Shown here: one piece after another, positions 3,569 to 51,709 of the stretch
Layout of the letters: every line of letters begins with the position of its first letter
Position numbering within the stretch: position 1 is the stretch's first letter
DNA from: Pseudomonas flavescens
Lineage (GTDB): Bacteria > Pseudomonadota > Gammaproteobacteria > Pseudomonadales > Pseudomonadaceae
Direction: 5' to 3'
DNA: 64,000 bases
Assembly: GCF_013408425.1 (NCBI RefSeq)
Contig: NZ_JACBYV010000001.1
Location: 3,100,001 to 3,164,000 of the forward strand
Program-made: the position numbers and the translations under genes
The notes under the pieces: model-generated
What the model saw: the letters and a program-made list of their open reading frames with translations, nothing else
The model's database searches: none
Told to the model about the DNA's origin: nothing

Positions 3569-3630
3569 TCAACACCCTCGAGGGCCCTGCTCGTGCAAAG
3601 GAAAGCGAGCGCACTGGTGAGGCCGCAAGG

Positions 3631-3659
3631 TTGCCATCGCCAAACCTGCGAGCTAGAGT
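3631..3659 (+). promoter_or_regulatory. Candidate sigma-70 promoter of C4 module copy A
   Basis: TTGCCA at 3631-3636 and TAGAGT at 3654-3659 are separated by exactly 17 bases. Both hexamers and the spacer are conserved in the second copy. Transcription would start near 3666, upstream of a hairpin and the C4-like RNA. Confidence 0.5.
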
Positions 3660-3765
3660 GCGCCGGTCACGGTCTATCCCGCGACCGGGCGTCAGAACCC
3701 GAGAAATCAGGAACGCACTAGCGCTATAGCCTAGTGGGCATGTACATGCTCGCTTGCGTCTTTAT

Positions 3766-3843
3766 GGCAGGCCGTGCGGGGCAGGCTTCGGCCTGGCCGG
3801 TTCCCCTGGTTTCCGGTTTCTGACCCCCGTACGGTCTGCCACC
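3766..3843 (+). ncRNA. C4-type antisense RNA, copy A
   Basis: This resembles the C4 antisense RNA of phages P1/P7 and the P4 CI RNA. A closing stem pairs GGCAG with CTGCC and CCGTGCGGGG with CCCCGTACGG. Inside are a CAGGC-TTCG-GCCTG hairpin and a CCGG...CCGG hairpin. Two segments are complementary to targets just downstream: CTGCCACC (3836-3843) to GGTGGCAG (3864-3871), and CCCTGGTTT (3804-3812) to AAACCAGGG (3882-3890). The targets lie immediately before the leader ORF, as in P1, where C4 masks translation initiation of icd/orfX. The pairing is retained in copy B through compensatory changes. Exact RNA ends are estimates. Confidence 0.75.
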
Positions 3844-3902
3844 CAAATCGAGTCAGAACGATCGGTGGCAGCTCCTTAAGCAAACCAGGGAGCATAAGGA
3901 AA

Positions 3903-3989
3903 ATGCGCCATCCAGCTTTTACGCTAGGGCACCACCCTACCTGCACACTGACACCCTTCGCCTCCAGCCAGGAGGTGCGCCATGGCTGA
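3903..3989 (+). CDS. 28-residue leader peptide coupled to the small ORF (copy A)
   Basis: A short ORF starts MRHPAFTLGHHPTCT and ends with VRHG. AAGGA precedes its ATG by three to four bases, and the predicted C4 target AAACCAGGG lies 12 bases before the start. Its TGA (3987-3989) lies inside the first codons of the next gene (ATGGCTGA), an arrangement typical of translational coupling. Both differences from the copy B leader are amino-acid changes, so the act of translation may matter more than the peptide. In P1, ant is coupled to the C4-controlled orfX in a similar way. Confidence 0.55.
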   Translation: MRHPAFTLGHHPTCTLTPFASSQEVRHG

Positions 3990-4260
3990 ACCACGCAGCC
4001 CGGTCGTTCGTTTCCCCAGACGGCAAAGCCCCATTCCGAAAACCTGCCCACCACCCCCTCGCGATACCCAGGGTGACGCCGAACTGCGTGCCAGCTTGCT
4101 GGCCGACATATTCGACGAACTGATCCGCAAGAAAGGCGAACACCCCGAAGGCCTGCTAGTGCACGCCGCCGCGCTGTTCGCAAAGGACCTGCTCGAAGAG
4201 ATGGTGGTGCTCTATCGCCAGGCGCTGTGCGAGGTGCAGGGAGGGGGTGGGCATGTTTAG
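3982..4260 (+). CDS. Small conserved protein of the C4 module, function unknown (copy A)
   Basis: A 92-residue protein with a strong GGAGG ribosome binding site. The N-terminus is basic and Pro-rich (RFPRRQSPIPKTCPPPPR). The C-terminal half is predicted helical and amphipathic (ASLLADIFDELIRKKGEHPE, then HAAALFAKDLLEEMVVLYRQ). I do not recognise the family. The copy at 51204 differs at three residues while most nucleotide differences are synonymous, so the protein is under purifying selection. By analogy with P1/P4 C4-controlled genes it could be a growth inhibitor or toxin kept silent by the RNA, but nothing in the sequence proves that. It has no signal peptide or transmembrane segment. Confidence 0.7.
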   Translation: MAEPRSPVVRFPRRQSPIPKTCPPPPRDTQGDAELRASLLADIFDELIRKKGEHPEGLLVHAAALFAKDLLEEMVVLYRQALCEVQGGGGHV

Positions 4261-4446
4261 AGACAATGTCACGCCCCTCCCCATCCACGGTAATCGCCAC
4301 GGCATTCGGACCATGCCCCACTTCCGTCGGCGAATACGTTTGTACGGTTCGGCTAGTCATCGTGCTAAAGCCCTGAAACCTTCACCAACAGGCATCACAG
4401 TCATCACCGGCGGTTATGTCAGTGGCCCTATCGTCAGCAGGGAGGT

Positions 4447-5439
4447 TTAGGCGGACGTAGTATCAACTAGCTGCATACCTTGTTCTGTATAGCGTTCACC
4501 CTGAACAAGGTGCCTTTCGAGAATGCTGCCGATTTCCAGCATCTCTGCTTCGCTGAGATGTACCTGGGTCGCCCCTACGTTCTCCTGCAAACGATGCAGT
4601 TTAGTCGTTCCAGGAATAGGCACAATCGACGGTTGCTGAGCGAGAAGCCATGCCAGTGCCACTTGAGCGGGTGTTGCCTTCTTTCGCTGCGCAATGACGC
4701 TAATTGCTTCAGCGATTTGTTGATTGGCAATGCGTGCATCACCCTGAAAGCGCGGCAACGTATTGCGGATGTCGCCGCTTCCAAATTGAGTATCTGCGTC
4801 GATCTTCGCGCTGAGAAATCCCTTGCCTAAGGGGCTGAAAGGTACGAAGCCGATTCCCAGCTCAATTAGCGTCGGAAGGATCACTGCCTCTGGGTCTCTG
4901 GTGAACATGGAGTACTCGCTTTGGAGTGCTGCCACAGGTTGCACCGCGTGCGCACGGCGGATCGTCGCGCTCCCGGCTTCGGATAGCCCGAAATGGCCAA
5001 CCTTGCCCTCTTCGATCAGGTCTCTGACTGCGCCAGCCACTTCTTCGATTGGAACCTGCGGATCAACCCTGTGCTGGTAGAACAGATCAATTCGATCTGT
5101 CCGAAGACGCTTCAGCGACTGCTCGGCGACTAGACGGATGCGTTCAGGGCGGCTGTCCAGCTCACCGGTAGCAGCATTGCCGTCCTTCCAACCGAACTTG
5201 GTTGCCAAAACGACCTTGTCACGAAACGGGGCTACGGCTTCTCCGAGCCACTCCTCGTTTTGCGCACCATAGGCTTCTGCGGTATCGAAGAACGTGACGC
5301 CAAGATCATGCGCCGACCGAATGAGCGTGATGGCTTCATCCTTCGCGGCCGCAGGGCCGTAGCCAAAGGTCAGGCCCATGCAACCTAAGCCGATTTCCGA
5401 GACCTCGAGCTTGCCGATGCCTAGAGTTCGCTTTTTCAT
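4447..5439 (-). CDS. Aldo/keto reductase
   Basis: A 330-residue NADPH-dependent aldo/keto reductase that reduces aldehydes or ketones in the cytoplasm. The family's barrel motifs are present in order: [12 protein letters not shown] near the N-terminus, FFDTAEAYG (catalytic Asp and Tyr), LATKFGW (catalytic Lys), FYQHRVD (catalytic His), [10 protein letters not shown], and the NADP-binding [16 protein letters not shown]. Length and motifs fit the YajO/IolS-like AKR families. The start has GGAG eight bases upstream. It stands alone, 41 bases downstream of the esterase gene on the same strand, so co-transcription with it is possible. The substrate is unknown. Confidence 0.9.
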
Positions 5440-5480
5440 AGTCTGTCTCCGTTACTGATTACAACAATCGCTTCAGGCGA

Positions 5481-50610: not shown

Positions 50611-50847
50611 ATCGCCAGGCCAATTCGTTTCTCGCCGGGCCCATACCAGCCTCGAACAATGCTGTTCACCCTCGTTACCGACTGCAATCACCCCCCGACA
50701 CGTGACGCCCCATGTGGCTGCAGCCAAAGAGCGATTCTGCTCACGCGCTGCAGCGAACCAGGAGAACAACGGCAGAGCAGGCTGCCACACGGGAGGCGGG
50801 TCATGACCACCCCGTGAATCAAGGCAGTCACGTTGCAACGCTCCGGC
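50611..50847. other. Intergenic, nothing recognised
   Basis: Sequence between the GlxA-type regulator and the second repeat module. The short frames here show no family signal. Confidence 0.5.
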
Positions 50848-50850
50848 AGG

Positions 50851-50879
50851 TTGCCATCGCCAAACCTGCGAGCTAGAGT
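50851..50879 (+). promoter_or_regulatory. Candidate sigma-70 promoter of C4 module copy B
   Basis: TTGCCA at 50851-50856 and TAGAGT at 50874-50879 with a 17-base spacer, identical to copy A. Confidence 0.5.
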
Positions 50880-50988
50880 GCGCCGGTCACGGTCGATGCC
50901 GTGACCGGGTGTAGCAACCTGAAAAACCAAGACGCGGTGCGTCGCACTTGCATAGTCGGTACTCGGTGCCGTGCTACTGCATTTCTAT

Positions 50989-51066
50989 GGCGGCCCGTAC
51001 GGGGCAGGCTTCGGCCTGGCCGGTTCCCTTGGTTTCCGGTTTGCTACCCCTGTACGGTCCGCCACC
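50989..51066 (+). ncRNA. C4-type antisense RNA, copy B
   Basis: The same fold as copy A with compensated changes: the closing stem is GGCGG/CCGCC instead of GGCAG/CTGCC, followed by CCGTACGGGG opposite CCCCTGTACGG. The downstream target is GGTGGCGG (51086-51093), matching the altered CCGCCACC (51059-51066). The second antisense segment, in CCCTTGGTTT (51026-51035), still pairs with AAACCAGGG (51104-51112) through one G-U pair. This co-variation supports a selected RNA-RNA interaction. Ends are estimated. Confidence 0.75.
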
Positions 51067-51124
51067 ATAACCGCGTAGCAACGGCGGTGGCGGCTCCTTA
51101 AGCAAACCAGGGAGCATAAGGAAA

Positions 51125-51211
51125 ATGCGCCATCCAGCTTTTACGCCAGGGTACCACCCTACCTGCACACTGACACCCTTCGCCTCCAGCCAGGAGGTGC
51201 GCCATGGCTGA
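51125..51211 (+). CDS. 28-residue leader peptide coupled to the small ORF (copy B)
   Basis: MRHPAFTPGYHPTCT...VRHG, with AAGGA before the ATG. Its TGA (51209-51211) overlaps the start region of the next gene (ATGGCTGA). It differs from copy A at two residues. The predicted C4 target lies just upstream, so antisense binding should block its translation and, by coupling, that of the 92-codon ORF. Confidence 0.55.
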   Translation: MRHPAFTPGYHPTCTLTPFASSQEVRHG

Positions 51212-51482
51212 ACCACGCAGCCCGGTCATTCGTTTCCCCAGACGGCAAAGCCCCATTCCGAAAACCTGCCCACCACCGCCTCGCGATACTCAGGGTGACG
51301 CCGAACTACGTGCCAGTTTGCTGGCCGACATATTCGACGAATTGATCCGCAAGAAAGGCGAACACCCCGAAGGCCTGCTAGTGCACGCCGCCGCGCTGTT
51401 CGCAAAAGACCTGCTCGAAGAGATGGTGGTGCTCTATCGCCAGGCGCTGTGCGAGACGCAGGGAGGCAGTGGGCATGTTTAG
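51204..51482 (+). CDS. Small conserved protein of the C4 module, function unknown (copy B)
   Basis: A 92-residue protein that differs from copy A at only three positions: V9I and two changes in the Gly-rich tail. At least seven further nucleotide differences are synonymous, a sign of selection on the protein. It has the same basic Pro-rich N-terminus and helical C-terminus, and the same GGAGG ribosome binding site. Its function is unrecognised; a C4-silenced host- or phage-inhibitory protein is a hypothesis only. Confidence 0.7.
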   Translation: MAEPRSPVIRFPRRQSPIPKTCPPPPRDTQGDAELRASLLADIFDELIRKKGEHPEGLLVHAAALFAKDLLEEMVVLYRQALCETQGGSGHV

Positions 51483-51709
51483 AGGCGATATCACGATTCT
51501 TCCCGCCAATGCCACAGGTAATGGCGCCTGGCATCAGCGAACGCCCTTGACGCGGCTTCAAGGGATATCAGAAACACTTCAACCTTATCGGTAAACGACA
51601 GAGCATCACTGTCGGGGTCGTTGTCGGCCACGGCAGTGATGCCTATAGAAAGCGATAGCGACCCAGCTTGACGGAGTGGCTCGCTCCCCTTCTGGTGGCA
51701 ACCCCGCCC

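Follow-up and report, generated by a model that had tools for sequence, protein, structure and literature searches.

C4 RNA is the textbook immunity switch of phages; RNase P, cutting at a GG site, processes RNAs of this class to about 77 nucleotides (nt). Two modules built around such an RNA, called A and B here, lie on a 64,000-nt stretch of the chromosome of Pseudomonas flavescens (assembly GCF_013408425.1, contig NZ_JACBYV010000001.1, positions 3,100,001 to 3,164,000 of the forward strand), referred to below as the window. Each module is read as a C4-type self-silencing operon resembling immI of phage P1, from a family that has been multiplied with new small-protein cargo and whose close kin are control regions carried by integrative elements. 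The probability of this reading is put at about 0.78. Judged from sequence, the RNA is of a known kind and its amplified, chromosomal, self-addressed setting appears to be new. The arrangement suggests multiplication of a viral immunity device, giving rise to a family that controls bacterial genes.

In P1 immI the parts follow one another as a1, b1, C4, a2, b2, icd and ant, which is the order found in A and B if the words called X and Y here are read as a and b. The annotated P1 record places them at 48255-48261 (a1), 48269-48276 (b1), 48343-48419 (C4), 48423-48429 (a2) and 48452-48459 (b2), with icd from 48470. The a word has 7 nt and the b word 8 nt, as in the window modules. The P1 a word, TTGACAG, has an exact complement inside P1 C4 and recurs in two chromosomal copies of the present family, L010 and L016. 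No exact complement of the whole b1 string is present in P1 C4; by eye, seven of the eight b1 bases are matched there, as is the complete b2. Unlike the P1 and P7 systems (RF01695, RF03163), the modules are chromosomal, A and B have no phage genes among ten neighbours, and there are 17 copies in the genome. The cargo also differs from that of P1 in having no similarity to antirepressors, except in the two Bro-N copies L016 and L017.

As described in PMC4825925, the CI RNA of satellite phage P4 is a processed antisense RNA whose two targets, seqA and seqC, lie on opposite sides of it, one upstream and the other downstream, and it acts by premature termination. Targets on both sides of the antisense RNA are also found in the modules here. 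The same source describes the isrK-orf45-anrP locus of Gifsy-1, in which the leader RNA IsrK frees the leader open reading frame (ORF) in trans. That locus has a leader RNA, a processed species after it, a leader ORF and a coupled second ORF, a layout that the modules would share. In the minimum-energy fold predicted for the A transcript, a1b1 pairs with a'b' in cis, which resembles the IsrK scheme, and some related loci have an Rfam isrK match immediately before C4. In that account isrK is a single prophage locus with antirepressor cargo; A and B differ in this and also in having no terminator.

C4 RNAs have been reported from Proteobacteria and phages, and the associated c4-a1b1 motif from gamma-Proteobacteria and phages (Weinberg 2010, PMC2864571). 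In Acinetobacter baumannii AB5075, 21 C4-like small RNAs with variable a' words form Group 1, and the published text leaves open whether they target incoming phage or bacterial messenger RNAs (mRNAs) (PMC5320573). The two sets are alike in comprising many C4-like RNAs per genome with variable a' words. Unlike in Group 1 as published, most of the RNAs here are followed directly by a matched target, ahead of an ORF, and another such target lies upstream. The question of the Acinetobacter C4 targets becomes directly testable, by a search for a matched word a short way downstream. The literature that was covered, outside which most subscription journals fall, held no recognisable account of a Pseudomonas C4 family.

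Anatomy of the two modules

A and B consist of the same parts in the same order: promoter-like pair, start hairpin, X1, Y1, C4, X2, Y2, leader ORF and 92-codon ORF. X is the a-type and Y the b-type target word, numbered 1 upstream and 2 downstream of C4; X' and Y' are the antisense words.

Module A
3631..3659, + strand: putative promoter, TTGCCA (3631-3636), 17-nt spacer, TAGAGT (3654-3659)
3653..3705, + strand: c4-a1b1 leader, made up of the hairpin at the presumed RNA start followed by X1 (RF03163, 40.4 bits, below its gathering score)
3691..3697, + strand: X1, upstream a-type target GTCAGAA
3704..3711, + strand: Y1, upstream b-type target AAATCAGG, one G-U pair with the C4 loop (sequence and fold)
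3760..3846, + strand: C4 antisense RNA (RF01695, 83.5 bits, cut-off 45)
3801..3812, + strand: antisense loop Y', TTCCCCTGGTTT
3818..3824, + strand: antisense junction X', TTCTGAC
3852..3858, + strand: X2, downstream a-type target GTCAGAA
3864..3871, + strand: GGTGGCAG, complement of the 3' arm of the C4 closing stem, hardly cognate-specific
3882..3890, + strand: Y2, downstream b-type target AAACCAGGG
3903..3989, + strand: leader ORF, 28 codons, overlapping the next ORF by 8 nt
3982..4260, + strand: 92-codon ORF, without a Pfam, NCBIfam, PHROGs or PADLOC family

Module B
50851..50879, + strand: putative promoter, TTGCCA (50851-50856), TAGAGT (50874-50879)
50911..50917, + strand: X1, GTAGCAA
50924..50931, + strand: Y1, AAACCAAG
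50983..51069, + strand: C4 antisense RNA (RF01695, 85.0 bits, cut-off 45)
51024..51035, + strand: antisense loop Y', TTCCCTTGGTTT
51041..51047, + strand: antisense junction X', TTGCTAC
51075..51081, + strand: X2, GTAGCAA
51086..51093, + strand: GGTGGCGG, complement of the C4 3' arm
51104..51112, + strand: Y2, AAACCAGGG, one G-U pair with the B loop
51125..51211, + strand: leader ORF, 28 codons
51204..51482, + strand: 92-codon ORF, protein 97% identical to that of A

The leader ORF and the 92-codon ORF, both noted in a preliminary description made from the letters of the window, are present in the two modules with the same 8-nt overlap. In P1 immI, translation of the main gene is coupled to that of the leader gene. 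The remaining C4 copies of the genome have, by eye, looser versions of the promoter-like pair.

Beyond the 92-codon ORFs (window positions 4253-4450 and 51475-51594) lies the start of a second ORF, ATGTTTAGA..., seemingly eroded in both A and B. Loci L014 and L015 have an intact 115-codon ORF at this position. The eroded ORF looks like a lost operon partner.

Identity of the C4 RNAs

The Rfam C4 model (RF01695), whose gathering score is 45, matches A and B over their full length with 83.5 and 85.0 bits. The preliminary description had seen a C4-type fold at these places and proposed the covariance-model scan as a check; both loci came out far above the cut-off. When folded alone, the 82-nt core of A takes the C4 shape with z = -5.15 (0 of 200 shuffles equally stable) and that of B with z = -3.68 (1 of 200). 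By model and predicted fold, the two loci are genuine C4 antisense RNAs. As is characteristic of the class, they carry two antisense segments with downstream targets, b2 lying at the predicted ribosome-binding site, and a second target pair, a1 and b1, is found upstream of C4 in the sequences of A and B.

Address words and covariation

The a-type antisense word is the 7-nt junction, TTCTGAC in A and TTGCTAC in B, the perfect complement of GTCAGAA and GTAGCAA respectively. This complement occurs twice in each module, upstream of C4 as X1 and downstream of it as X2. The preliminary description was right in giving each C4 two antisense segments and in placing targets just before the leader ORF. 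It named one of the segments wrongly, missing the junction, and it overlooked the upstream copies of both words.

Covariation was followed through 160 copies: 17 from the window genome, 42, 35 and 42 from three relatives (G005, G010 and G019), and 24 from further genomes. G010 has 36 matches, one of which is partial and was excluded. Statistics on four genomes refer to the 136 copies of the window genome, G005, G010 and G019, and ratios are given in that order.

Pairing of X' with its own X2 is complete (7/7) in 16/17, 33/42, 30/35 and 32/42 copies, against 34/272, 37/1722, 61/1190 and 94/1722 non-cognate pairs (12.5%, 2.1%, 5.1% and 5.5%). On the upstream side, X' and its own X1 pair 7/7 in 16/17, 31/42, 30/35 and 32/42 copies. 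If the duplex energies of X and Y are summed, the module's own target is strictly the best for 17/17, 34/42, 31/35 and 38/42 C4s, that is, for 103 of 119 in the three relatives. The reverse comparison, in which each target chooses among C4s, gives 17/17, 32/42, 28/35 and 33/42.

Over the 136 copies, a-type positions are Watson-Crick paired at 919/952 downstream and 922/952 upstream, figures that are flattered by the placing of words by best match; the fair contrast is that between cognate and non-cognate 7/7 pairing. All four Watson-Crick pairs occur in six of the seven X columns. The independent drift of stem and target that would have spoken against the preliminary description was not seen; in these sequence comparisons the antisense covaries strongly with two targets, X1 before C4 and X2 after it.

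The words are short and the sequence is rich in G+C, so that chance complementarity near ordinary GC-rich hairpins might be considered. With covariance-model scores far above cut-off, a cognate/non-cognate contrast in four genomes and four pair types in six of seven columns, this explanation is wholly improbable.

Where the words could be placed, stems of at least 4 bp flank X1 in 138/154 and X2 in 113/155 copies, compared with 26/154 and 23/155 random places. Y2 has a start codon 2-17 nt downstream in 132 of the 160 copies, most commonly at a distance of 9, and 99 of those 132 words contain AGGA, GGAG or GAGG.

The segment pairs given in the preliminary description, CTGCCACC/GGTGGCAG in A, CCGCCACC/GGTGGCGG in B and CCCTGGTTT/AAACCAGGG, are all present in the sequence. 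The stem pairing GGCAG/CTGCC, which had been offered as one of the two antisense addresses, joins the 3' arm of C4 to a downstream copy of its 5' arm. Its mean energies with cognate and non-cognate partners are -15.4 and -13.4 kcal/mol in the window genome, and -12.1 and -11.4, -12.3 and -11.6, and -11.9 and -10.9 kcal/mol in the relatives. The cognate advantage is thus 2.0 kcal/mol in the former and 0.7-1.0 kcal/mol in the latter, and the own partner is best in its row in only 3/17, 1/42, 1/35 and 2/42 cases. Being barely better with cognate than with non-cognate partners, this pairing is hardly module-specific and carries no address. It may form an alternative hairpin that presents X2 in its loop.

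Copy number and privacy of address

In the window genome, a single contig of 5.95 Mb, the C4 model matches 17 times, each time above the cut-off; relatives have up to 42 copies. A search of relatives found C4 in 25 of 38 genomes: 23 of 25 in the genus, the window genome included, and 2 of 13 others. In a wider draw of 293 genomes of the order, for which stricter filters were used and at most 14 candidates per genome were scored, C4 was found in 44, and no genome outside family f1 had more than six copies. What had been taken for two isolated cassettes is instead part of a genus-wide family, with close kin on integrative elements, and the survey that had been suggested as a check returned both the further copies and their covariation. 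With 17 copies in this genome and as many as 42 in a relative, most of them matched, the family offers a natural set of parallel antisense pairs within single genomes.

Privacy of address is a fact in the window genome: all 17 combinations of X and Y are different. Single words are shared, X = TTGGCGA by six copies and the Y core CTCTAGG by four, and A and B have the same Y2 with different X. Modules with nearly identical ORFs can have changed X words. This is found in A and B (96% ORF identity, 3/7 X positions differing), in A and L013 and in B and L013 (95% identity and 2/7 positions each), and in L014 and L015 (95% and 3/7). The B target pattern occurs in the genome only in its own module, the A pattern in its own module and one other place. 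This second site for the exact A pattern, G000 5534311-5534343 (L267), is a possible target in trans or a chance match.

Tandem arrangements are found in two relatives. L115 and L123 in G010 lie 722 bp apart and have the same address, the sole within-genome pair flagged as sharing both words. In G005, three modules (L067, L068 and L136) follow one another at about 850 bp. L068 and L136 have an identical ORF and downstream flank, C4 stems that are 70% alike, and different words, a sharp mosaic.

Cargo

The ORFs that follow the 160 copies were clustered into groups, to several of which one locus may belong. The largest group has 108 loci; four of its members were scanned, of which three are DUF6124 and one is DUF3077. 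Cargo of the MTDLLPLSSNP type follows at 24 loci, including 10 of the 17 in the window genome. Bro-N cargo is found at 7 loci, two of them in the window genome (L016 and L017), and cargo of the 92-residue type at 6, five of them in the window genome. There are two further groups of 3 loci, one of them probably an out-of-frame reading, and 12 loci are ungrouped.

Linkage of cargo to C4 is close in the three relatives. A C4 lies within 700 bp upstream on the same strand for 91 of 101 DUF6124 matches above cut-off and for 11 of 13 DUF3077 matches. The two DUF3077 matches that lack such a C4 overlap with two of the ten DUF6124 matches that lack one. Both families, of unknown function in Pfam, gain a likely common mode of control. 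In the portions of the literature available, DUF3077 is mentioned once, as a pseudogene in P. putida.

The median ratio of nonsynonymous to synonymous substitution (dN/dS) is 0.14 for the 92-residue family (4 pairs) and 0.56 for Bro-N (2 pairs). Two other cargo families have medians of 0.25 (41 pairs) and 0.43 (800 pairs, 756 with dN < dS). By this measure, the cargo ORFs are under purifying selection.

The 92-codon ORF product matches no family in Pfam, NCBIfam, PHROGs or PADLOC, and a protein search found 2 relatives. Neither is it an antirepressor by similarity; among the 17 copies only L016 and L017 encode Bro-N proteins. In these two, C4 is followed by an antirepressor-like protein, the arrangement closest to P1.

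Structure and profile comparisons say little more. The model of the 92-residue protein has two helices (mean predicted local distance difference test score, pLDDT, 71), and that of DUF6124 a C-terminal helical hairpin (mean pLDDT 81), for which no fold match was found at E <= 0.001. The DUF6124 and 92-residue profiles have no relative in the PDB by sequence, and the MTD-type profile has just three matches there (E 0.012 to 0.12), taken as chance. Profile comparison links DUF6124 weakly to the MTD-type cargo (probability 70%, E 4e-5) and finds no link to the 92-residue family.

The pairing of one RNA with one adjacent small protein, in many scattered copies with differing addresses, recalls toxin-antitoxin systems. 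C4 would then act as an antitoxin RNA against a small protein that does harm, with addiction keeping the modules in place; the related IsrK-AnrP-AntQ locus is described as leading to growth arrest (PMC4825925). Against this, 10 of the 101 DUF6124 genes have no C4 within the same 700 bp, so the protein is tolerated alone in some cases. In Pfam, NCBIfam, PHROGs and PADLOC, the cargo that was scanned matches no toxin family; of six proteins given to PADLOC, L006 alone has a weak match, to HEC-07 (E 0.0027). An addiction role for the modules is accordingly rather unlikely.

Proposed mechanism

In the self-silencing operon that is favoured here, one promoter would produce a transcript with a leader (X1, Y1), C4 (X', Y') and a distal part with X2 and then Y2. 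C4 would be excised from this transcript and pair with X2 and Y2 of its own mRNA. Pairing at Y2, the presumed ribosome-binding site, would block the start of the leader ORF and hence the coupled protein; the silencing of the 92-codon ORF by each module, as the preliminary description also supposed, is what we infer from this arrangement. The start-codon distance of Y2 in 132 of 160 copies fits such a translation block. X1 and Y1 are also able to pair with C4 and may serve as an ON arm, like the leader RNA IsrK in Gifsy-1. X (7 nt) and Y (about 8 nt) together would form the address, and with a different combination in all 17 copies each module would mainly govern itself. Control regions of integrative elements are close kin, and the family would have been multiplied on Pseudomonas-type chromosomes with new cargo.

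Alternatively, the RNA may act as in P4, pairing with the leader targets to cause early termination of transcription, with the downstream pairing secondary. The upstream a-type word is matched as well as the downstream one (922/952 and 919/952), leader and C4 pair in the stable fold of A, and terminator-like sites lie between a1 and C4 in 22 of 136 copies compared with 4 of 136 random stretches. However, a Y2 at start-codon distance, so often with a ribosome-binding motif (99/132), would be unneeded for termination alone. In the three relatives, only 8/42, 12/35 and 13/42 copies have an upstream b-type word that suits their own C4 best, and neither A nor B has a terminator-like site. Such a termination mode is possible, though clearly the less probable of the two.

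A number of observations weigh against the self-silencing operon. The leader of A scores 40.4 bits with RF03163 (E 3.5e-9 in a 241-base search), below the gathering score of 46.7, and that of B did not reach the c4-a1b1 cut-off in the Rfam scan. Of 15 other loci scanned, 8 exceed the cut-off of this model with their own module (L001-L004, L006, L010, L015 and L105; a match at L068 was assigned to the adjacent module and is excluded from the count). An isrK-like terminator between a1 and C4 is absent from A and B, so a short ON RNA is less likely there than in the 8 of 17 window-genome copies that have a terminator-like site.

The words themselves also leave exceptions. Preference for the own target fails for 8/42, 4/35 and 4/42 C4s in the three relatives. 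With the Y word alone, the own downstream target is best in only 14/17, 24/42, 30/35 and 25/42 cases, and the own upstream target in 14/17, 8/42, 12/35 and 13/42. Y2 could not be placed in 20 of the 160 copies, and 8 more have no start codon 2-17 nt after it; some of these copies are probably decayed, and part of them may be parser failures. DUF6124 and DUF3077, so closely linked to C4 in relatives, are both absent from the window genome.

Avoidance of shared addresses is weak: 37.0 shared directed pairs would be expected and 26 occur (P 0.048, summed over four genomes, one threshold), and none of the four genomes is significant singly at either threshold. Both words are shared in 1/303 pairs within genomes and 9/1391 between genomes; since such sharing is equally rare in the two cases, privacy can be accounted for by diversity alone. 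These figures do not establish that shared addresses are selected against within a genome. The sequences show the anatomy of the modules, their pairing and covariation, the copy number, the linkage to cargo and the kinship with element-borne modules; transcription, processing, silencing, coupling, the ON arm, self-only action and the direction of transfer are steps that we infer from the arrangement of the parts.

Chromosomal setting and kinship with integrative elements

The ten neighbouring ORFs that were scanned, five at A and five at B, include no phage or integrase family, in line with what the preliminary description says of the vicinity. They are ordinary chromosomal genes or unmatched, one of the ten having no match of any kind. 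With no integrase or structural gene among these ten neighbours, RF01695 matches and matched words, A and B stand as the free-standing chromosomal C4-type modules that the preliminary description had supposed.

Related modules are found on integrative elements. The pattern TTGGCGA...GTGGCAG...AGGAG matches 22 contigs in IMG/VR. The antisense lies upstream in 10; only these were scanned, and Rfam identifies every one as C4. L274 has an integrase, a Toprim/primase and a tail tape measure protein, and the protein encoded downstream of its C4 is 61% identical to an MTD-type cargo protein. An antirepressor by PHROGs is found at L281, with similar ORFs, by eye, at L282 and L291. L286 has an integrase, a capsid protein and an int-alpA RNA. 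Its address, X TTGGCGA and Y CTCTAGG, is identical to that of the chromosomal copy L006; identity between the two is 90.8% in C4, 88.9% from X1 to Y2 (207 columns) and 56% in the next 100 nt. On this sequence evidence, the chromosomal C4 family and the element-borne modules are close kin. The strict A and B address patterns had 0 matches each in IMG/VR.

Element-borne modules of the same class (L274 and L286, the latter with the address of L006) and the lack of a recognisable target in some copies would also be expected if the modules were decayed remnants of prophages or satellites, immunity regions left over without present function. The words are matched in most copies, however, and the dN/dS medians of 0.14, 0.25 and 0.43 point to continued function of both RNA and protein, which makes mere decay improbable.

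An identical address in L006 and L286 is what an RNA-based immunity memory would look like. Chromosomal C4 modules might then form a heritable address book, in which a resident C4 silences an entering prophage or satellite with the same address, keeping its replication or antirepressor operon off. This idea is speculative and we consider it unlikely. With one address common to L006 on the chromosome and L286 on an element, RNA-based cross-immunity can be put to the test. If the idea were true, addresses would turn over in an arms race, and the small proteins would be selected or selfish cargo.

Viral contigs and plasmids were also searched with the cargo. DUF6124 occurs at 32 loci in viral contigs, at 29 of which, as the table reads, the gene is within 3 kb of a contig end; these genes therefore look like host flanks. 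Single-protein scans of viral contigs found no relative of the window and MTD-type proteins, L274 being reached later by the DNA pattern. With one query protein, no DUF6124 was found on plasmids. In phages the search gave one match, a DUF6124-like gene (L229 52-405, EU982300) at the margin of a tailocin record from P. fluorescens Q8r1-96 that also contains prtR and phage tail genes.

The gene on the left flank of A is matched in 26 of 149 genomes of the genus and that of B in 109 of 149, counts that include the window genome and short partial matches. Among 20 loci taken for each gene, C4 lies within 1.5 kb at the own locus only. Clean empty sites that would define a mobile unit were looked for in nine other loci; no insertion edge could be read, as only the query gene, save for one 62-bp piece, matched the window by BLAST.

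C4-like DNA is also found on plasmids of other bacteria. Plasmid pRK1 of E. coli W, typed IncI-gamma/K1, has a match near repA (L230 1801-1889; 60% of the query covered at 73% identity) that precedes the gene of a hypothetical protein of 95 codons, and similar matches occur in other enterobacterial plasmids. Mycetohabitans plasmids (H2-H7) carry stretches that are 80-83% identical to the window C4.

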